Positions 10,915 to 29,665 of a stretch of 64,000 nt of DNA are shown here, piece by piece. The notes under the pieces are model-generated. The model was not told where the DNA came from, searched no databases, and worked only from the letters and a program-made list of their open reading frames with translations. Positions within the stretch are counted from its first letter, which is position 1. Each line of letters opens with the position of its first letter. This DNA comes from Herpetosiphon aurantiacus DSM 785 (lineage in GTDB: Bacteria > Chloroflexota > Chloroflexia > Chloroflexales > Herpetosiphonaceae), in assembly GCA_000018565.1 (NCBI GenBank), contig CP000875.1, positions 3,363,199-3,427,198 of the forward strand, given 5' to 3'. The position numbers and the translations under genes were made by a program.

Positions 10915-11502
10915 ATGAATCCCAACAATCCACAAATCTCGAATACTATTAATGGAAGCACTATTAATGGCGGCAACGTCGCAATCGGTAATAACGGAAA
11001 CATCAATCAAACTAATAATAACTATATTACCCACCAAAACAGCAATGAATATATTGAAGTCTTTGGAACGTTATCAATCTATCTAAAAAGTGATAAACAA
11101 TATCAAGATTTCGATCCTTATGTTCCGTTTAGTTGTATGGCTGAAATAACTGAAGATAGAACAACCAGAACCACAAATTACACATTATTTACTGATTATT
11201 TATATTTAGATAATTATCAAAGATCTTATACATCTGAATTTGATTATTATTATCAATTTCGCAATGATAACAATAAATATCTACGAAGAATTTTTAGAAA
11301 TATGATTGATGAATTAAAGAAAATAGGATTTTACTTTAAAGAAGAAGATGAAAAATTCATATTAGATACATCTATTGGAAATCCTTCATTATCAGCTTTA
11401 AAATCGTTTACAGGATCAGAACACAAGTGTTTCCTTCGTATCTATGATAATTTTATATCAATCGACAAAAAAAATACACAAGTATGTACAATGTATCAAT
11501 AA
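10915..11502 (+). CDS. AT-rich gene of unknown function with Asn/Gly-rich N-terminus
   Basis: I do not recognise a family. The 195 residues begin with about 45 Asn/Gly/Ile-rich residues in a short-period pattern (NTINGSTINGGNVAIGNNGN), likely a beta-helical or linker-like lead-in. A mixed alpha/beta body rich in Tyr, Phe, Asp, Asn and Lys follows. There is no signal peptide or membrane helix. Base and codon use (AAT, AAA, TAT, ATA) differ sharply from the flanking genes, which suggests recent transfer. A GGAGG at about 10901-10905 supports ATG 10915. It overlaps the next frame by 19 bases. Similar Asn/Gly lead-ins occur on some bacterial conflict-system proteins, but a link here is only a guess. 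Confidence 0.65.
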   Translation: MNPNNPQISNTINGSTINGGNVAIGNNGNINQTNNNYITHQNSNEYIEVFGTLSIYLKSDKQYQDFDPYVPFSCMAEITEDRTTRTTNYTLFTDYLYLDNYQRSYTSEFDYYYQFRNDNNKYLRRIFRNMIDELKKIGFYFKEEDEKFILDTSIGNPSLSALKSFTGSEHKCFLRIYDNFISIDKKNTQVCTMYQ

Positions 11503-11756
11503 ATACTGATAATATCAGTATAAATCAAAAAATCCTTAATGAATGGCTGGCTAGTAAGCCGCGACCTGATAAAGGTGACTTAATCGAAATACATTGGCTT
11601 TTATCTATATCTATAATCGTTATAACAATCTTTATCGCCTTTTCCCAATACGAAAAGCAAGCAATACCTATTATTATAGGTATGATTATTGTATTAAAAG
11701 TTTTAGGATTTATCATCGATTTAATTAATCATATCTATAAAACATCAAATGATTAG
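11484..11756 (+). CDS. AT-rich small two-helix membrane protein
   Basis: A 90-residue protein with a polar N-terminal 35 residues and two membrane helices at about 40-58 and 63-83 (LLSISIIVITIFIAF and PIIIGMIIVLKVLGFIIDL), separated by a short charged loop. It starts inside the last 19 bases of the preceding gene in another frame and shares its AT-rich composition, so the two probably form one cassette with coupled translation. A soluble protein paired with a small membrane protein is a layout seen in effector/pore pairs, but nothing in the sequence proves toxicity or defence. The start codon is uncertain. Confidence 0.6.
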   Translation: MYNVSINTDNISINQKILNEWLASKPRPDKGDLIEIHWLLSISIIVITIFIAFSQYEKQAIPIIIGMIIVLKVLGFIIDLINHIYKTSND

Positions 11757-11827
11757 ATCCTCTAGCCAAAGCCCCAACCAGCAGCTATACTAGCGCCAAG
11801 CGTCTGGATTGAACGGAGGTTGCAACG

Positions 11828-12628
11828 ATGGCCTTAACCTTTCAAACCGCCCCACGCATTTCGCAAGCAGAGTTTCGGCGCGTGCTCGAACGTGGCACAG
11901 AGCTTGGTCGCTCGCCCGTCGCCCCTTTTGCCGATGAGTGCTACCAAATTATTGTTGGCTATGGCTTAGATCCAGCAGTGGCACTCGGTTTTTTCGCCCA
12001 CGAATCGCAATTTGGCCTTGATGGTGTTTCAACCAAAAGCCTCAATTGGGGCAATGTTCGCACGCCTTACGATCCCAAACGAGCTGCCGGAACCGTGCAA
12101 AGTGCTAGCGGTCATGGCGAATTCGTCTGTTTTCGTTCGTGGCAGGATGGGTTGCGCGATTGGTGTGAGCGAATTCTCAATCGCTATATCAAAGAACGTG
12201 GCCTAACGACGGTCGATGCGGCGATTCCAGTCTATGCCCCTTCATCCGATGGCAACAACGAAAAAGCCTATATCCAGCATGTTGAGCGATTGGTAACTCG
12301 TTGGCAGGCGGAAGATCCGCAGCCTGTGGTAGTTTCAACAGGAGGTCCAAGCGTGGCTGAATTACAAGATGCCTTGATGGTCGCAGCGTTCGAGGCGGTT
12401 GGTGCAACCTATCATCCAGAGTGGGCTTTTCATCAATATGCAATGAACGAGGCCAAGGCTGGGCGGTTTCTTGGCTCGCCACTCGGCGAAAGCAAACGAA
12501 TCACGGTGGGCGGTCAACAATTTTCGGTGCAAGTCTTTGCGCTCGATACACTCTACACGCCGATTGGCAACCCTGAGAGCAGCACCAACTGGAGCGATAT
12601 TCGACGGCTCAGTGCTTTGCTCAAGTAA
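11828..12628 (+). CDS. Glucosaminidase-like (lysozyme-fold) peptidoglycan hydrolase
   Basis: A 266-residue protein. Residues 40-155 carry a glucosaminidase-type domain: FFAHESQFG gives the catalytic-Glu segment, and SLNWGNVRTPYD corresponds to the family's Asn-x-x-Gly-Asn/Ile turn. FRSWQDGLRDWCERIL and IPVYAPSSDGNNEKAYI fit the rest of the fold. No signal peptide is evident, so export is unclear. Residues 175-266 form a separate region (MVAAFEAVGATYHPEWAFHQ) that I cannot name. GGAGGT at 11815-11820 supports ATG 11828. Its stop lies one base from the stop of the convergent HAD gene. Confidence 0.75.
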   Translation: MALTFQTAPRISQAEFRRVLERGTELGRSPVAPFADECYQIIVGYGLDPAVALGFFAHESQFGLDGVSTKSLNWGNVRTPYDPKRAAGTVQSASGHGEFVCFRSWQDGLRDWCERILNRYIKERGLTTVDAAIPVYAPSSDGNNEKAYIQHVERLVTRWQAEDPQPVVVSTGGPSVAELQDALMVAAFEAVGATYHPEWAFHQYAMNEAKAGRFLGSPLGESKRITVGGQQFSVQVFALDTLYTPIGNPESSTNWSDIRRLSALLK

Positions 12629-14329: not shown

Positions 14330-14514
14330 CGTTCGCCCGCTCCTTCCTTTATACGAGTTCCACCACCATCGGTTGGGCGGCTCACATTGCCGCTAGTGGG
14401 GAATGGCTAGAATGTGCAGAACCTAGCTAAATTCAAGTTTTGCAAATGTTCACCTATTCAGCAATGGTTGAATAGTCCTTGCTTCCTCACAGATAGTTAG
14501 GTCTTTTTAATTTG

Positions 14515-14528
14515 TGTAAACGTTTACA
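14515..14528. promoter_or_regulatory. LacI-family-like operator palindrome
   Basis: TGTAAACGTTTACA is a perfect palindrome with central CG, the form typical of LacI/GalR-family operators. It lies about 185 bases upstream of the kinase gene. No LacI-type regulator is in the window. Confidence 0.45.
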
Positions 14529-14602
14529 AATACTAACATAGCTAGCTAGCATTGTTAATCACAGTCAAGGGAGTAGAAATAGGTGATTCGTTATCCTATG
14601 TT

Positions 14603-14643
14603 GAGGTGATTAAAGATCCCCTGTAGGAGTTATTAATCACCTC
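14603..14643. ncRNA. Candidate structured RNA element
   Basis: A 10-bp perfect stem GAGGTGATTA/TAATCACCTC encloses a 21-base loop with a possible inner TCC/GGA stem. It lies 83 bases beyond the reverse transcriptase stop and lacks a clear U-run, so it is not an ordinary terminator. Confidence 0.35.
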
Positions 14644-14725
14644 ACTTGACGACAATTAACATTAACAAAAACTAACTATTAGATCACGATTGGGAGTTTA
14701 AATGTCATTTCTCTCGCGAGGCAGT

Positions 14726-17086
14726 TTATTCGACCGCGCCGTGCAATTTATGAGCTGATTTACGTGCAATCAGTTGTAATGGCACGAGTTCTGTAAAGAG
14801 AAAACGAAAACTTCCGCAGCGTTCAAGCATTTGAGGGCCGTAGAGTGCCAGCACCCAGCGCCAATAGGCCGATAAGCCATGTTGCTCGCCATTGCGAACC
14901 TCGCCGCCTCGTGCAATAAAATCATCGGTCAATGACGTTAATACGCTGTTGGCTTCTGGCTCAGTTGCCGCAAGTTTCTGCAACCAATGGCGATAAAACT
15001 TGCCCCATGGATTATCGTTTTGTTGCCACCATGCCAGCCGTTCTGTTGGCACGCTTGGCGCTGTAGCTGCTTGCCACGCTTGCTGGTAACTGTGAGCAAT
15101 AATCAACGGTTGCTGAATGCCCAAGCCGCCAGCGGTGATTGGCCAATGAAACCAACCTTCAGGCAAACTAACGCTGTTGTTCAAACGCTGGTGAATCAAA
15201 TCGCCAATATAGGCCACCATGCTGCCTTGTTGAATGATTTGTTGACCATAGCGCCATAAGGTTGTACGCACCTGCTCGCGATGGCTAGCCCCAAGGTTGA
15301 CCCGCAGACCAATCGCTTGGCATAGGTAGGTACAAGCGCCATTATACACCTCAATTTTATTAAGAATTGCAGGTGTATTAGTGATAGTCTGGGCAGTTTG
15401 GTTAATATATTCGCCAATCAGACTATGATCAAGTTGCCATGTGCCTTGCGCATCAAGCGTCAAAAAGAGCCAATGCGGCGCTTGATGCGGTAATTCGCTG
15501 GGTAATTGGTCATTAATTGCCATTGCGCCAGTTTTTTGCTCGTTCAAATTCAGGCCACAGCTAGTACACCAGGTTTGTAGTGCTTGCCATGCTTTGCGCA
15601 TTTCATCAGGATCGGTGGCGATAATCGTCAAATCATCGACGAAGCGCACGATTTGCACATGAGCATGCAACTCAAGATATTGCTCCATCAACCGCAACAC
15701 CAACTCGCCTAAAATGTCTGAAATTGGACGATGATTGGGAATGCCAATCTGTTGTTGGGTCGCTTGCTGATTGACTTGCAACGGCACTGCCATATATTCA
15801 GCAAAAAACCCGATTTGCTGCTGGCTCAAGCCCATACGCTGCAACACATCGAGCACAAATTGCTGATTGAGCGATGGATAATAATCGCGGAAATCGGTTT
15901 TGAGCACATAGATGGCTTGGTCGGGCGTGGCGTGCAAGCCAAGCTGAATTTCGGCGTTGATCAAGCGTAATGCAACTTCGAGATTATGCTCATAATTGCT
16001 ATCATACTCGGCCAATTGGCTCCATTGCTGCAAGCGTGTAATTTCAGCGGCTCGACTGGCAAAAATCGATTGCGGATTGCCATATAGTTCAAGCTGTTCA
16101 GCCGCATCGAGTGCCAGCGGGCGGCGCAGGGTATGCCACAAATTAACGCTTTTGGAAACTGCATAGCTTTCGGCAATTAACTTGTTCAAATCGCGATCAT
16201 AGCCGCGATCTTGGGCGATGCGCTTGAGTTTTTTCAGGGGCAAGCTGCTGTTGACCCGACAAAACTTAGCAAAATACTCTTGCCAATGTTCAGCAACGAC
16301 GTGATGCAAACAGGCGGTCAGTAAATCTTCTTGCAAAAATAAACGCCATTTTGTTCGCGCAAATTGAGCAACCGCCGTAACTCCGGACTTGGGCCAGCGC
16401 CAATCGGCCAATTGCGTCCGCACAATCATCAACGCATCGGCCAATTCTTTGCGCATAATCGGATCGCCCAAAATCTGACGAGCCTCAGACCGGGTAGCGG
16501 CGCTGTAAAAACTATCTTTGGCAATCCGCCGCAAGATCGCGCAGAGTGTATCGCTATCAATTTCATCAGGCTCAGCCTGTAGCGCTTTGCTCAATTCGCT
16601 GCGAGTTTCAGGATCAAATTGATCATGAAAGATGGCATCGAGCACCACCCCATGCGTGGTTGCCATGCTTGGCTGATTAATTTGGGTAACGAGGCTCTGG
16701 GCCTGCTCGGGGTAGCTCGCCGCCACTTCAGCATGATCAAGCCATTCTTGAAATAGTGCGCCGAAAATCGAGACTAATTCGGCTCGCAGTTGGCCGCTAG
16801 CCAGTTCGCGCTCTAGCTCAGCCGACCACCAAGCAGTTAATTCGCTACTCGCAGGCGTAGCTGGATCGCTCAATAAACGCATGTTGGTGATGCTTGGGTG
16901 CAGCGGCTGTTTGGCAAAGGTTAATTGCTGGAGCTGCTCGTGAAGCAGGTTAATCCGAGCGTGGGGGTCTTCAATTGTGGCTAAACGTTGGCTAATTTCA
17001 GCATAGGTTGCAAGGGCTTGCTCACGTTGCAAGCCCAGCTCGCGCAATTTAATCGCAGTTACCAATTGTTCACTTGCAGTTAACAT
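14726..17086 (-). CDS. Reverse transcriptase of an unassigned type (786 aa)
   Basis: The polymerase core lies at about residues 390-570: motif A YVLKTDFRDYYPSL, motif B GIPNHRPISDILGELVL and the catalytic motif C IVRFVDDLTIIAT (FVDD, not the YADD usual in group II intron enzymes), followed by CGLNLNEQKTG (motif D/E). There is a long helical N-terminal region (about 380 residues) and a C-terminal region (about 200) with no maturase, HNH or integrase motif. A fingers motif of the group II kind is not evident. Length and layout recall the unknown-group or abortive-infection reverse transcriptases involved in phage defence, but I cannot place it in a named clade. GGAGG at 17092-17096 precedes the ATG within a small hairpin. 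It follows hisG by 28 bases. Confidence 0.85.
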   Translation of the reverse strand: MLTASEQLVTAIKLRELGLQREQALATYAEISQRLATIEDPHARINLLHEQLQQLTFAKQPLHPSITNMRLLSDPATPASSELTAWWSAELERELASGQLRAELVSIFGALFQEWLDHAEVAASYPEQAQSLVTQINQPSMATTHGVVLDAIFHDQFDPETRSELSKALQAEPDEIDSDTLCAILRRIAKDSFYSAATRSEARQILGDPIMRKELADALMIVRTQLADWRWPKSGVTAVAQFARTKWRLFLQEDLLTACLHHVVAEHWQEYFAKFCRVNSSLPLKKLKRIAQDRGYDRDLNKLIAESYAVSKSVNLWHTLRRPLALDAAEQLELYGNPQSIFASRAAEITRLQQWSQLAEYDSNYEHNLEVALRLINAEIQLGLHATPDQAIYVLKTDFRDYYPSLNQQFVLDVLQRMGLSQQQIGFFAEYMAVPLQVNQQATQQQIGIPNHRPISDILGELVLRLMEQYLELHAHVQIVRFVDDLTIIATDPDEMRKAWQALQTWCTSCGLNLNEQKTGAMAINDQLPSELPHQAPHWLFLTLDAQGTWQLDHSLIGEYINQTAQTITNTPAILNKIEVYNGACTYLCQAIGLRVNLGASHREQVRTTLWRYGQQIIQQGSMVAYIGDLIHQRLNNSVSLPEGWFHWPITAGGLGIQQPLIIAHSYQQAWQAATAPSVPTERLAWWQQNDNPWGKFYRHWLQKLAATEPEANSVLTSLTDDFIARGGEVRNGEQHGLSAYWRWVLALYGPQMLERCGSFRFLFTELVPLQLIARKSAHKLHGAVE

Positions 17087-17088
17087 CA

Positions 17089-17108
17089 GTGCCTCCAGCG
17101 TGGAGCAC
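17089..17108 (-). promoter_or_regulatory. Hairpin masking the reverse transcriptase ribosome site
   Basis: GTGC-TCCA pairs with TGGA-GCAC around a CGC loop, with one bulged base. The GGAGG Shine-Dalgarno sequence lies inside the 3' arm, five bases before the ATG. There is no U-run, so it is not an obvious terminator. Confidence 0.5.
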
Positions 17109-17114
17109 CTTCTG

Positions 17115-18116
17115 CTAGCTTTTGTGCATCAACTCGCTCAATGCGGCAAAACTTTGAGAACGTTCGGCAAAAACATAGTGGACTGGCAGAACCGTAATGC
17201 CTGTCGAGCCAATCGAACGCAAATGATCGATCGCTGGCAAAATGTTGGCGCTATCGACGACCAACGACACCGCGTACCAGCCTTCACCACCATCGCGACT
17301 CCAAACTGGCGAAACAGTTGGGCCTTGCAATCCTGCCAAGGCGGCATGGGCTACCACTCTTGCCCCAACATCGGCAACATCCGAGCCTGGCACGTTGGCA
17401 ATCAACGAAACATAGGTTTTGGCGCGATGGCGAGCTTCGATCAGCTCTAAAATCGATTGGACAACCCGTTGTTTTTGCGAACTTTCCCGTAGCGACCGTC
17501 GGTTGGCGATTAATGCAGCTTGCGCTTGCAGAATTGTGCCTCCTTGAATCATTTTGAGATGATTATCGCGTAGGGTTGTCCCAGTGGCTGTCAAATCGGC
17601 GATGATATCGGCATATCCCAACGAAGGCGCGGCCTCGGTTGCACCTTGCGAGTCGATCAGCGCAAAAACATTGATGCCTTGCTGATGACACCATTGGCGC
17701 ACCAAATTGGGAAACTTGGTGGCGATGCGCAATTGGCGGCCAGCCCGGGCATACTCCGCCGCCAAATCGGCCACATCACGCCACGAGGTTACGTCAATCC
17801 AATGATCGGGCACGGCCAGCACCAAATCGCAGTAGCCAAAGCCCAAATCTTTATAGACCACGACTAGATCATCGCTCTCGCCGCCCAGTTCTTCGACCAA
17901 ATCATAGCCACTTACGCCCAAATCAATCGAGCCATCGGCGACTTTCTCGACAATATCGGGTGCACGATGCAGCAAGACTTCAACTTCGGGCAGCGCTTTG
18001 ATCGAAGCCGTGTAGCGGCGCGGATTGGGTCGCGAGACTTTCAGGCCACAGCTTTCAAAAAAGCGAAACGTATCATCAGCAAGAGCACCTTTGGAAGGCA
18101 CAGCAAAACGTAGCAT
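17115..18116 (-). CDS. hisG: ATP phosphoribosyltransferase, long form
   Basis: Joins ATP and PRPP in the first step of histidine synthesis. The N-terminus is LRFAVPSKGALADDTFRFF. Key segments are DLGVSGYDLVEE, the PRPP-binding region GATEAAPSLGYADIIADLTATGTTLRDN, and a C-terminal ACT-like regulatory domain (about residues 225-310), which marks the HisZ-independent long form. The frame is open to 18140, but ATG 18116 overlaps the stop of the CopC-CopD gene as TAATG and starts directly at the conserved region, giving 333 residues. No other his gene is present. It sits at the end of a copper/cytochrome cluster, an unusual partner. Confidence 0.93.
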   Translation of the reverse strand: MLRFAVPSKGALADDTFRFFESCGLKVSRPNPRRYTASIKALPEVEVLLHRAPDIVEKVADGSIDLGVSGYDLVEELGGESDDLVVVYKDLGFGYCDLVLAVPDHWIDVTSWRDVADLAAEYARAGRQLRIATKFPNLVRQWCHQQGINVFALIDSQGATEAAPSLGYADIIADLTATGTTLRDNHLKMIQGGTILQAQAALIANRRSLRESSQKQRVVQSILELIEARHRAKTYVSLIANVPGSDVADVGARVVAHAALAGLQGPTVSPVWSRDGGEGWYAVSLVVDSANILPAIDHLRSIGSTGITVLPVHYVFAERSQSFAALSELMHKS

Positions 18117-19831
18117 TAGCGCGTTATCTCCACAGTCCATTCAGCAGTTACGTCGGGCAAATTCAAACGACGCACCTGCATTTCGATCTTCCAGCGCCCA
18201 ACCAAGCTTAGCGCTCCTGAGGTCGCGGTAAAACGTCCATCAGTAGCAGGTTCAAGAATTGCCACTTGTTGGCCAGCTTCGAGATCAAGCGATTCAAAGC
18301 GTAAGCGTACTCGATCTGGGCGAATTACGCCATTCGCATCGCGGACGGTTGCGCTAAATTGGCGTTCACCAGGCCGATTATCATCAGTATCGAGGGTCAT
18401 GGTTAAATCTTCGCGCTGCGCTGTTAGATAGAGCGGCTGGGCGACCCGTGGGGTTGGCGTTGGCAAGGTTGGTCGGGCAGTGCCACCAGCGCTGGGAGCG
18501 GCTTTGACTGGATGTGGCGTTTGAGTCAAAGCGCTAGCAACCAGAATCACCCCAATCGCCAAAGCACTTTCCAAGCCCAAGGTCAGGCCAATTTTTACCA
18601 CAGTTGTTTGATCTTTGGCAGCTTGCAAACGGGGATTAAGCTTACGCCAATGCCAAGAGCCGAGCAACAAAGCTGCCAGCATCACCGCCAACTTGATCAA
18701 CAAGGTCTGGCCGTAGCGCGATTCCCACAAGCCTGCCAAGGTTGGCAATTGGTCAAAGGTACGCATCGTACCAGTCAACACAACCATCGCAATGCTAAAC
18801 AAGGCCAACGGGCTAAATCGGGCAATCAGCCAAGCCAAAGCGCTGTTACGTAGCGCCGCCTCGGTTTTACGGAGTACCCAAGCACTCAAAGCCATACCAA
18901 TCAAGCCACCAAACCAAACCGCCGCCGTCAGCATATGCATCCAATCTGAGGCCACCGGCGTGATTGGATCGTCGATGTTAGCCGCTGCATGGCCGCTCAT
19001 ACTAAAGGTCAATAGGCTTAAACTTGCCAAAGCCAAGGCAACATAGCCCATTGGTTTTTGGTAAGCAGCCAAGAACGTCAGCGGAATTAACAGTGTGATC
19101 GCGACCAAGCGAATCAAGGCCAACACGCCCCAACGGCTAATCGCCATCGAAGAAAGCACATCGGCATATTGAATTGAGGCTAAACTACCATCACCAAAAT
19201 CGCTGGCCCGCACCACAAATTCCCAAACCGAGCCAATCAACAGCCAAACCAAACTCAGCTGGGTCAGCCAAATCGTTGGGCGAACCAGCAACGGCAAACG
19301 TGATTCAGGATTATGTTGAATTGCTGGCAATAATAAAATCAACAACCACGCCAAGCCGCCAATCGCCCCTAAGCCGCCAGTTAAGGCGATTGAACGCCCG
19401 CTGACCACGCCCCAATTCAAGCCAGCATTGGCGGTTGCACTAACTTCGACCGAGGGCGCGGTGGGAGCAACCCCAGTGCCAATGCTAAACAGCAACGAGC
19501 CAGCCGAACGATGGCCATCGGCGGTCGAAAGCACTTTGTAAATCAAGGTATATTCGCCAGGCCGAAGCTCGGCAGGCAAGGCCACTTGCATACTATCGGC
19601 AGCAGGAAACTGGGTTTGCGGTAGGCCAATTGGCTGCGATTGCTCATTGTAGAGCGTCAACGAGCTATAACTACGATCAAGCGGCTCGCTAAATCGCAAC
19701 ACAACCTCGGCAGGTGCGACATCGAGCACCGCCCCATCAACAATGCTGCTCTCGATAACCAAGGCATGAGCCGCCGCCACACTTGGCCATAAACACAGCA
19801 CAAATAGAGCTACAATTAAAATCCGCTTCAT
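18116..19831 (-). CDS. CopC-CopD fusion copper-handling membrane protein
   Basis: A 571-residue protein. A signal segment ends near AHALVIESS, so the mature N-terminus probably begins at or near the copper-ligating His (Ala-His). CopC domain (about 22-125) features are VVLRFSEPLDRS and VLSTADGHRSAGSLLFSIG. A CopD membrane domain of about eight helices follows (about 148-455) with GHAAA and WMHMLTAAVWFGGLIGM. The C-terminal 110 residues lie outside as a beta-rich domain after a Pro/Thr linker. It probably delivers or imports copper, perhaps for cytochrome oxidase maturation. It is translationally coupled to hisG downstream and separated from the second copC gene by a terminator and a repeat. 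Confidence 0.85.
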   Translation of the reverse strand: MKRILIVALFVLCLWPSVAAAHALVIESSIVDGAVLDVAPAEVVLRFSEPLDRSYSSLTLYNEQSQPIGLPQTQFPAADSMQVALPAELRPGEYTLIYKVLSTADGHRSAGSLLFSIGTGVAPTAPSVEVSATANAGLNWGVVSGRSIALTGGLGAIGGLAWLLILLLPAIQHNPESRLPLLVRPTIWLTQLSLVWLLIGSVWEFVVRASDFGDGSLASIQYADVLSSMAISRWGVLALIRLVAITLLIPLTFLAAYQKPMGYVALALASLSLLTFSMSGHAAANIDDPITPVASDWMHMLTAAVWFGGLIGMALSAWVLRKTEAALRNSALAWLIARFSPLALFSIAMVVLTGTMRTFDQLPTLAGLWESRYGQTLLIKLAVMLAALLLGSWHWRKLNPRLQAAKDQTTVVKIGLTLGLESALAIGVILVASALTQTPHPVKAAPSAGGTARPTLPTPTPRVAQPLYLTAQREDLTMTLDTDDNRPGERQFSATVRDANGVIRPDRVRLRFESLDLEAGQQVAILEPATDGRFTATSGALSLVGRWKIEMQVRRLNLPDVTAEWTVEITR

Positions 19832-27860: not shown

Positions 27861-28535
27861 ATGGATAGTTTTGAGCCATTACGCGCAGCTGGCTTGGATG
27901 TAACATTCCATGTATGGGACGAGGAAGAAGTCGCAACCGCAATCCGCTATGCTCAACAACGTCGAAGCCAAGGACTTCCATCTCAAGTACCCTATTTTTG
28001 GTATGCCAACGTATCCAAGCCCGCCGATCACCCAACCTATAATCTGTCGCAGGATGTTACACAGGAAAAAACACCAAGGCCACTAGATAGTCTTGTATCA
28101 AGCATTGCATTGCAGATTGAAAACCGCCAAGCCTGCTATTGGAAAATCTGGGATTACATTCCAGGCCCAGTTCATCACGAATTTTTCTGTCATTACGAAT
28201 CACTTGATATGCTGATACCCAATCTTATCAACTATTATTGTGGAGAGTCTACAATAATTAATGATTGGGTTGTTCCATTAAATCGGCATCCTGAATTGAA
28301 CCCTAGGCGAGTAGCGACGATTATTGTCCACGCAAGGCCTACCACACTCACCAAGCTTGAGAAGCATCAAACCAACCAATCTCACCGAGACCAGATGCAA
28401 TGGAATCGTGAACGTTGCACACGCCATGCCTTCCTACGCCAATACCTCATCATCAAGCATAATAGTGATCCGACGAGCCAACTTTATCTGCGACGTGATT
28501 GCCGAGCTGCTTGGATCATTCCTCAATCTGATTAA
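27861..28535 (+). CDS. Unknown protein upstream of the permuted methyltransferase
   Basis: A 224-residue soluble protein that I do not recognise. It has no signal peptide or membrane helix. Features visible: an acidic N-terminal part (FHVWDEEEVATAIRYAQQRR), an aromatic-rich middle (ACYWKIWDYIPGPVHHEFFC) and a basic, His/Arg/Asn-rich C-terminal third (LEKHQTNQSHRDQMQWNRER). Composition is more AT-rich than the aminopeptidase before it, and it lies 41 bases from the C5 methyltransferase. A partner restriction enzyme or accessory factor is possible from context alone; no PD-(D/E)xK or HNH motif is convincing. Confidence 0.6.
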   Translation: MDSFEPLRAAGLDVTFHVWDEEEVATAIRYAQQRRSQGLPSQVPYFWYANVSKPADHPTYNLSQDVTQEKTPRPLDSLVSSIALQIENRQACYWKIWDYIPGPVHHEFFCHYESLDMLIPNLINYYCGESTIINDWVVPLNRHPELNPRRVATIIVHARPTTLTKLEKHQTNQSHRDQMQWNRERCTRHAFLRQYLIIKHNSDPTSQLYLRRDCRAAWIIPQSD

Positions 28536-28576: not shown

Positions 28577-29665
28577 ATGTCAAAAATTACGAATCACTAT
28601 ACACGTAATGTGGGGATGCAAGTTCAAGAGCGGATTAATCATCTTGGTATTGGGCAAAAAATGCAGGATCTACCCGAACACCTTTGGCATGAAAGTTTTC
28701 GCTATTATGTTAAAGAAGATCCATCACGTCAAGGTGGGCCAAATCTACGGATGATTCGCTTAGATCCTAATAAGCCATCGTTAACAGTTACTGCCTTTAT
28801 CTTCAATAAATTTGTCCATCCTTTTGAAAATAGATTTATTACAACTCGTGAGGCTGCACGATTACAAGGCTTTCCTGACAACTTCGAATTTATTGGCTCA
28901 TTAACTAGTATTCAACGTCAAATCGGTAATGCAGTTCCAGTTCCATTAGCAACGGCTATATTACAAACAATCTTACAGCATGCAAAAGCTCATCATCCAG
29001 AAAAAAGCTTATTTTCAGCATTAAGTATTTTCAGTGGGGCAGGTGGGCTTAATTTAGGTGCTCAACAGGCCAAATTACCCAATGCAAAATGGCAAACAAT
29101 TGCATCAATTGATATCGATCGTGATGCATGTACCAGTCTTGAACATCATTTCGCGAATAAAAATGTGATTTGTCAAAATATTATTGATATTACTCAACCT
29201 AAATCATTAATGAGCCAACCACTCGATCTATCATATGGTGGGCCTCCTTGTCAATCATTCAGTCAGGCTGGTAAACAAAAAGGGTTATCCGATCCTCGTG
29301 GAAATTTAATTTACGAGTTTATTCGTTTTCTAAGTGATCTTAATCCAAATTACTTTTTGTTAGAGAACGTAAAAGGTTTACAGGGAATTAATAATGGCCA
29401 ATTATTACATCTGATAATCGATGATATTCGTAAGCTTGGGTATAACGTAACATTCGGTGTAGTCAATGCTGCTGATTATGGAACACCGCAGCTTCGCAAA
29501 AGAATTATTATCCTAGGTTGTAAGCAAGATTTAGGATTTGTAAATCTGCCGCTACCAACGCATGCGACTGAGGCTAATTTGCTATTACAGCCCTATAAAA
29601 CAGTTGGTCAAGCTTTGCAAAATCTACCACCCGCCTTAGTTTGGCAAAAAACAACCACCAAGTAA
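28577..29665 (+). CDS. Circularly permuted C5-cytosine DNA methyltransferase
   Basis: Transfers methyl groups from SAM to cytosine C5 in a specific DNA site. The motif order is rearranged: a target-recognition-like segment (1-65), motif IX/X region (SLTVTAFIFNK, then FITTREAARLQGFPD near 92-106, and QIGNAVPVPLA near 115-125), then motif I IFSGAGGLNLG (about 151-161), motif IV GGPPCQSFSQ (catalytic Cys near 225), motif VI LLENVKG and motif VIII YGTPQLRKRIIIL near 300. The protein ends with TVGQALQNLPPALVW, which normally leads into the recognition domain. All motifs are present and the frame is intact. No recognisable restriction enzyme adjoins it. AT-rich composition suggests transfer. The last codons lie in the terminator stem. 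Confidence 0.9.
   Translation: MSKITNHYTRNVGMQVQERINHLGIGQKMQDLPEHLWHESFRYYVKEDPSRQGGPNLRMIRLDPNKPSLTVTAFIFNKFVHPFENRFITTREAARLQGFPDNFEFIGSLTSIQRQIGNAVPVPLATAILQTILQHAKAHHPEKSLFSALSIFSGAGGLNLGAQQAKLPNAKWQTIASIDIDRDACTSLEHHFANKNVICQNIIDITQPKSLMSQPLDLSYGGPPCQSFSQAGKQKGLSDPRGNLIYEFIRFLSDLNPNYFLLENVKGLQGINNGQLLHLIIDDIRKLGYNVTFGVVNAADYGTPQLRKRIIILGCKQDLGFVNLPLPTHATEANLLLQPYKTVGQALQNLPPALVWQKTTTK

Follow-up and report, generated by a model that had tools for sequence, protein, structure and literature searches.

Reverse transcriptases (RTs) of the UG groups studied so far each put DNA synthesis to a different use in immunity, and the UG classification of RTs reportedly derives from the paper of Mestre and colleagues. 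Within class 1 of the UG/Abi enzymes, AbiK and Abi-P2 have no thumb and end in a C-terminal alpha-solenoid (PMC9508834). The class 2 systems DRT2, DRT9 and DRT10 require a cis-encoded ncRNA (PMC12632851, PMC12483538, PMC13275509), and class 3 enzymes carry a fused nitrilase or phosphohydrolase domain (PMC13275509). G2L4, a group II-like RT, is reported to act in double-strand-break repair (PMC12337344).

The RT considered here is encoded by Herpetosiphon aurantiacus DSM 785 within a stretch of 64,000 nt (the window). The features of the locus were as follows.

14726..17086, minus strand: UG37 RT gene (786 aa), recognised by the RT_UG37 profile and RVT_1 and kept in 6/6 Herpetosiphon genomes
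17087..17114, minus strand: hisG-RT gap of 28 nt with the conserved Shine-Dalgarno and start, CTGGAGGCACTG-ATG
17115..18140, minus strand: hisG, which lies upstream in the same orientation; it marks the site and is not regarded as belonging to the system
14400..14680, minus strand: conserved non-coding element after the RT, a probable promoter/operator of the APH-HAD pair

The ORF comprises 786 codons on the minus strand, running from an ATG at 17086 to 14726. The original prediction of a 786-residue RT was borne out exactly in position, the strand being added here, and its three motifs, FRDYYPSL, GIPNHRPISDILGE and RFVDDLTI, were all found in the translation. The start codon is preceded by about 8 bases by a GGAGG sequence common to all six Herpetosiphon species. 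Pfam analysis of the protein revealed RVT_1 at residues 386-523 (3.1e-13; 50.3 bits, cut-off 29.6) and no other domain, in agreement with the earlier description of a stand-alone RT on the UG/Abi side that lacks maturase, HNH, integrase and protease domains; the nitrilase or phosphohydrolase domain of class 3 was likewise not found by Pfam. Intact homologues came from six Herpetosiphon species, at 83-96% identity, and from six less closely related genomes, at 32-38%. The dN/dS ratio of 0.07-0.14 across the whole gene indicated purifying selection, and the Haur-Hgig comparison by region gave 0.15 for the N-terminal part, 0.08 for the palm and 0.15 for the C-terminal part. Because the gene is intact across the 12 homologues and its dN/dS is this low, it is not a chance ORF; the gene is real and encodes a bacterial reverse transcriptase. 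A weak Rfam match to RNase MRP within the gene (15.8 bits, cut-off 50) was rejected as chance.

The PADLOC RT_UG37 profile (PADLOC-DB PDLC03776, filed under DRT) covered residues 1-779 of the 786, corresponding to model positions 1-774 of 778, with 1234.4 bits, and the next-best PADLOC family, UG4, reached 61.6 bits and matched the palm only. RT_UG37 was also the group with the best E-value for 12/12 aligned homologues. The RT is a full-length member of UG37, an already catalogued family without characterised function, and nothing detectably different from that profile was seen. No paper naming UG37 as this RT family, or giving its function, was found in the open-access literature. The full-length match refutes the earlier view that the protein belongs to no obvious known class, and the expectation of an undescribed system fails with it, a UG37 model being already in PADLOC-DB. 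The underlying observation is sound and was over-read as new; the features do form an interesting combination, and the status of the protein as a candidate defence RT is upheld, as a candidate only.

The aspartates D398, D484 and D485 were invariant in the 12 homologues, so that the catalytic mutations named beforehand as a possible counter-indication did not occur. Tyrosines Y28, Y393, Y403, Y581, Y667, Y698, Y741 and Y749 are likewise invariant. The YxDD box varies in its first residues; homologues carry LVDD, MVDD, FIDD, TMDD and AVDD, and the FVDD box of this protein is not the distinctive trait it had been taken for. With its catalytic residues intact, the RT is apparently a working enzyme. 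Its regions were delimited as follows.

16727..17086, minus strand: residues 1-120, UG37-specific helical N-terminal module, without Pfam match and outside the structural alignments
15932..16726, minus strand: residues 121-385, predicted N-terminal extension and fingers, from the structural alignment with R2 and GsI-IIC
15470..15931, minus strand: residues 386-539, palm with motif A (D398) and the xxDD box (D484/D485), containing RVT_1 at 386-523
15184..15427, minus strand: residues 554-634, predicted thumb-like helical bundle, from the model helices and the GsI-IIC alignment
14729..15166, minus strand: residues 641-786, conserved C-terminal tail of about 145 aa with the motifs P.xWxxWPxTAGGxG, YWRW and GxFRFLxTxLVP

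An AlphaFold2 model built from 12 sequences (mean pLDDT 69, pTM 0.66, palm pLDDT about 75-93, low confidence after residue 640) predicted a fold of fingers, palm and thumb-like helical bundle. Structural alignments to the model began at about residue 115-124 or later. The original prediction had set apart a helical N-terminal region of 380 residues, of which only about 1-120 proved to be extra, the remainder aligning with the N-terminal extension and fingers of other RTs (R2 from about residue 124, group II GsI-IIC from 170). The C-terminal region of 200 residues was similarly redrawn, since it begins with the thumb-like bundle, whose model helices span 554-570, 574-591, 600-617 and 623-634, and then continues into the conserved tail; the GsI-IIC structural alignment extends to model residue 668. 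Among distant members, residues 1-120 (43-48% mean identity) were as conserved as the RT core, the palm showed 49-51% identity, and the tail showed mean identities of 42% (641-710) and 52% (711-786), the faster-evolving stretches being 121-205 and 291-385 (24-25%). Searched alone, the C-terminal part gave no sequence-profile match in the PDB and none above the Pfam cut-off, and its fold search returned middling helical-bundle scores, including R2 (Z 5.3) and GsI-IIC (Z 4.6). The TAGGxG of the tail may correspond to the GGLG motif that follows the RT in non-LTR elements. Modules 1-120 and 641-786 are likely oligomerisation, sensing or effector parts.

The best PDB fold matches of the model were R2 RTs (R2Bm, Z 23.1 over 425 residues, rmsd 4.9), followed by GsI-IIC (18.4), LINE-1 ORF2p (18.4-16.7), G2L4 (16.2), DGR (16.0), DRT9 (15.7) and DRT2 (15.0); this ranking comes from the UG37 model alone, and the R2 preference may not be specific to UG37. 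The lead of R2 comes partly from its longer N-terminal extension. The fold list from BFVD was headed by LINE-type RTs of large eukaryotic viruses, and the PDB sequence matches were mostly group II RTs. AbiK and Abi-P2 were absent among the 50 structural matches listed, which is no evidence of a different fold.

Each of the described groups shares part of this architecture. UG37 resembles R2 and LINE-1 non-LTR RTs in its best fold matches; however, it has no endonuclease, zinc finger or retrotransposon context, and its sequence similarity to them is confined to the RT core. No linked endonuclease or mobile element was found by Pfam, and each Herpetosiphon genome carries one copy, always at the same site. 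Like DRT2, DRT9 and DRT10 of class 2, it has predicted fingers, palm and thumb, but no ncRNA was found for it. With class 1 (AbiK, Abi-P2 and Drt4) it has in common that it is a single large protein without a known ncRNA, and the tree described below favours placing its RT core beside AbiP2 and Drt4. It is predicted to differ from AbiK and Abi-P2 in a thumb-like bundle, an extra N-terminal module and an unrelated conserved C-terminal tail. The alpha-solenoid was not seen in the model, which shows a four-helix thumb-like bundle instead and is of low confidence after residue 640.

On balance, and with moderate confidence, we propose that UG37 is a catalytically intact single-protein UG/Abi (defence-associated) RT that acts as a DNA polymerase for phage defence. 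The distribution of the gene bears on this proposal from two sides. One intact copy was found in each of 6/6 Herpetosiphon genomes, between hisG and the APH-HAD pair, and it was the sole RVT_1 match at E 1e-8 in four of them (G001, G002, G004 and G005). Measured against the giganteus group, the RT had a dS of 0.74-0.78, similar to or slightly higher than the 0.54-0.63 of hisG and APH, in keeping with vertical descent within the genus. Fixation at one site in 6/6 genomes, with no other RVT_1 match in four of them, is more suggestive of a host function than of a mobile defence island. No mobile-element carriers were found, and UG37 was not detected in the phage, plasmid or viral contigs searched, including IMG/VR; seven IMG/VR pattern matches were rejected as not being relatives. 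The shared site, the sole RVT_1 match in four genomes and the vertical descent, together with the purifying selection, the predicted thumb and the presence of the G2L4 structure among the fold matches, speak for a domesticated host enzyme of DNA repair or end-joining synthesis, like G2L4 RT, that has been kept vertically in the hisG operon. We regard such an enzyme as possible but rather unlikely, and the distribution outside the genus argues against it. A UG37 match was found in 15/400 sampled Chloroflexota genomes, three of which hold only fragments or remnants. The order search detected UG37 in 8/82 genomes, namely the six Herpetosiphon genomes, G073 (another genus of the family; 1/3 further Herpetosiphonaceae genomes) and G302 (1/~73 genomes in the rest of the order), and 7/47 genomes of one other class, that of G125, also had it. 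Copies that are truncated or have lost their core also exist: the matches in G266 and G229 are contig-scale fragments, and G328 retains residues 1-264 followed by the C-terminal end in another frame, with the RT core deleted. In G073, the order SMC-CopC-CopCD-HisG is kept without an RT after hisG and the RT lies on another contig; the location of UG37 thus differs between genomes, and the one behind hisG is a trait of the Herpetosiphon lineage. Because the gene is patchy outside the genus and decayed copies accompany it, the pattern resembles that of an accessory defence gene. The range of UG37 is known from Chloroflexota, and it may be wider, since the wider scan with short peptide patterns finds close relatives only.

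Shared partner genes were not found at the distant UG37 loci, where the neighbours differ at every locus and include LRR, MFS, MarR, short-chain dehydrogenase, TIR-beta-helix and zinc-dehydrogenase proteins. Defence genes beside UG37 are not the rule. The gene for the TIR-beta-helix protein, a TIR domain fused to a right-handed beta-helix, immediately precedes UG37 in G197 (L030:11248-12780, minus strand); TIR proteins are common in defence. The remnant of G328 (L034:8899-9800) consists of an N-terminal part out of frame with the C-terminal end, and a strong hairpin comes after it. In the window, a low-GC, strain-variable stretch at 10915-12628 (plus strand) lies beside the locus; its orphan ORFs and a glucosaminidase-like protein occur in some Herpetosiphon genomes and are missing from others. 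Elsewhere in the window, a C5 cytosine methyltransferase is encoded at 28577-29665 (plus strand), matched by PF00145 in two stretches, the main one at 147-334. Motifs I, IV and VI follow its motif IX/X-like end (RFITTREAARLQGFPDNFEF...QIGNAVPVPLA), an order that makes the enzyme look circularly permuted. The ORF before it (27861-28535) had no Pfam match and could encode a partner restriction enzyme.

Next, the flanks of the RT gene were analysed for a cognate RNA. The gap of 28 nt between hisG and the RT leaves no room for an upstream ncRNA; the corresponding gap in L030 is about 84 nt. Downstream, the 14400-14680 element was conserved at up to 97% within Herpetosiphon, against 58-68% in the adjoining stretches, folded better than shuffled sequences (z -3.65) and was single-copy, occurring only beside the UG37 RT in all six Herpetosiphon genomes. 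These properties would suit an ncRNA-templated DRT of the class 2 kind, with the element serving as template for a DNA effector. Its best-conserved part, however, comprises a -35 (TTAACA), an extended -10 (TGTTAGTAT) and a perfect, LacI-operator-like palindrome of 14 bp (TGTAAACGTTTACA, at 14515-14528), just upstream of the APH gene. The main stems were invariant (covariation term +0.25), so that covariation cannot be judged and lends the RNA no support, and the GTCAAG/CTTGAC closing stem is broken in Hgey. A covariance model of the element found no match at UG37 loci outside Herpetosiphon, and the flanks of distant UG37 genes showed no similarity beyond chance-level matches of 12-34 nt. Terminator-like hairpins were seen by eye directly after the RT in G073 and G328, which also counts against an RNA at this position. 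Since the covariance matches are restricted to Herpetosiphon and nothing is shared by the distant flanks, the element, examined by alignment, folding, covariance model and promoter/operator scan, is better read as the probable promoter/operator of the APH-HAD pair than as an ncRNA of the RT; an RNA-templated system built on this element is doubtful. No conserved cis-encoded ncRNA was found beside UG37 in the examined loci, where a diverged RNA could be missed.

The position of UG37 was examined in a tree of 44 RT cores, comprising eight UG37 members together with group II, DGR-like, AbiP2, Drt4 and unclassified RTs from Chloroflexota genomes, the label DGR-like resting on length and tree place and not on a family model. 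UG37 formed a single clade on a long branch (support 100/99) and fell with AbiP2 and Drt4 at 98/93, and at 91/88 after removal of four long rows, with long branches throughout. When UG37 was forced with group II, p-AU was 0.067 and 0.055, and with the DGR-like RTs it was 0.10. UG37 is thus a clade of its own, for which the side of UG/Abi class 1 is favoured by the core sequences and a grouping with group II disfavoured; this placement rests on long branches, and p-AU values of 0.055-0.10 do not formally reject the group II or DGR-like grouping. As had been proposed as a check, the tree did not place UG37 inside the group II RTs, and no adjacent intron RNA was found. Although UG37 resembles group II RTs and G2L4 in RT core similarity and fold, an RT/maturase derived from a group II intron after intron loss is highly improbable: its 59.7 bits to TIGR04416, the mostly group II sequence matches in the PDB and the GsI-IIC fold match (Z 18.4) are outweighed by a maturase cut-off of 300 that lies far above this score, by the lack of intron RNA among the Rfam matches and of HNH, and by a tree that splits UG37 from the group II/DGR side (98/93), even if AU p of 0.055-0.067 disfavours the grouping rather than rejects it.

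The proposal of a defence polymerase is thus carried by membership in UG37, the invariant aspartates, purifying selection, the differing neighbours and the tree position beside AbiP2 and Drt4. Against it stand the absence of any other RVT_1 match at E 1e-8 from four Herpetosiphon genomes, the lack of mobile carriers and the scarcity of defence neighbours noted above. By analogy with described UG/Abi RTs, the most likely role of the UG37 enzyme is the synthesis of DNA for defence (PMC13275509, PMC13174585, PMC9508834). Transcribed probably from the hisG operon, the RT would respond to phage infection by synthesising DNA, and this DNA, or the enzyme loaded with it, would then block the phage or the cell. 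Synthesis that is protein-primed and needs no dedicated template, or synthesis on ordinary cellular or phage RNA, seems more likely than the ncRNA scheme of DRT2, DRT9 and DRT10, because no cognate ncRNA was found. With neither an ncRNA nor a fused enzyme found, a single-protein mode is the leading idea. The thumb-like bundle makes template copying with duplex formation more plausible than in the thumb-less Abi enzymes, and the enzyme may copy an RNA.

A broader reading, which we offer tentatively and consider rather unlikely, is that UG37 is a thumbed single-protein RT with an R2-like N-terminal extension and no dedicated ncRNA, bridging the untemplated Abi polymerases and the template-copying RTs. 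In Herpetosiphon it would then be a fixed chromosomal defence or genome-maintenance gene, with 1-120 and 641-786 as undescribed effector or sensor domains. Fixation across the genus of a predatory gliding bacterium is unusual for a defence gene. UG37 offers a compact test case, being a single gene for which no partner was found and which has been gained, lost and degraded in nature. Should the enzyme make DNA without an ncRNA despite its thumb, the rule that thumb-less Abi enzymes are untemplated and thumbed DRTs copy an ncRNA would need revision.
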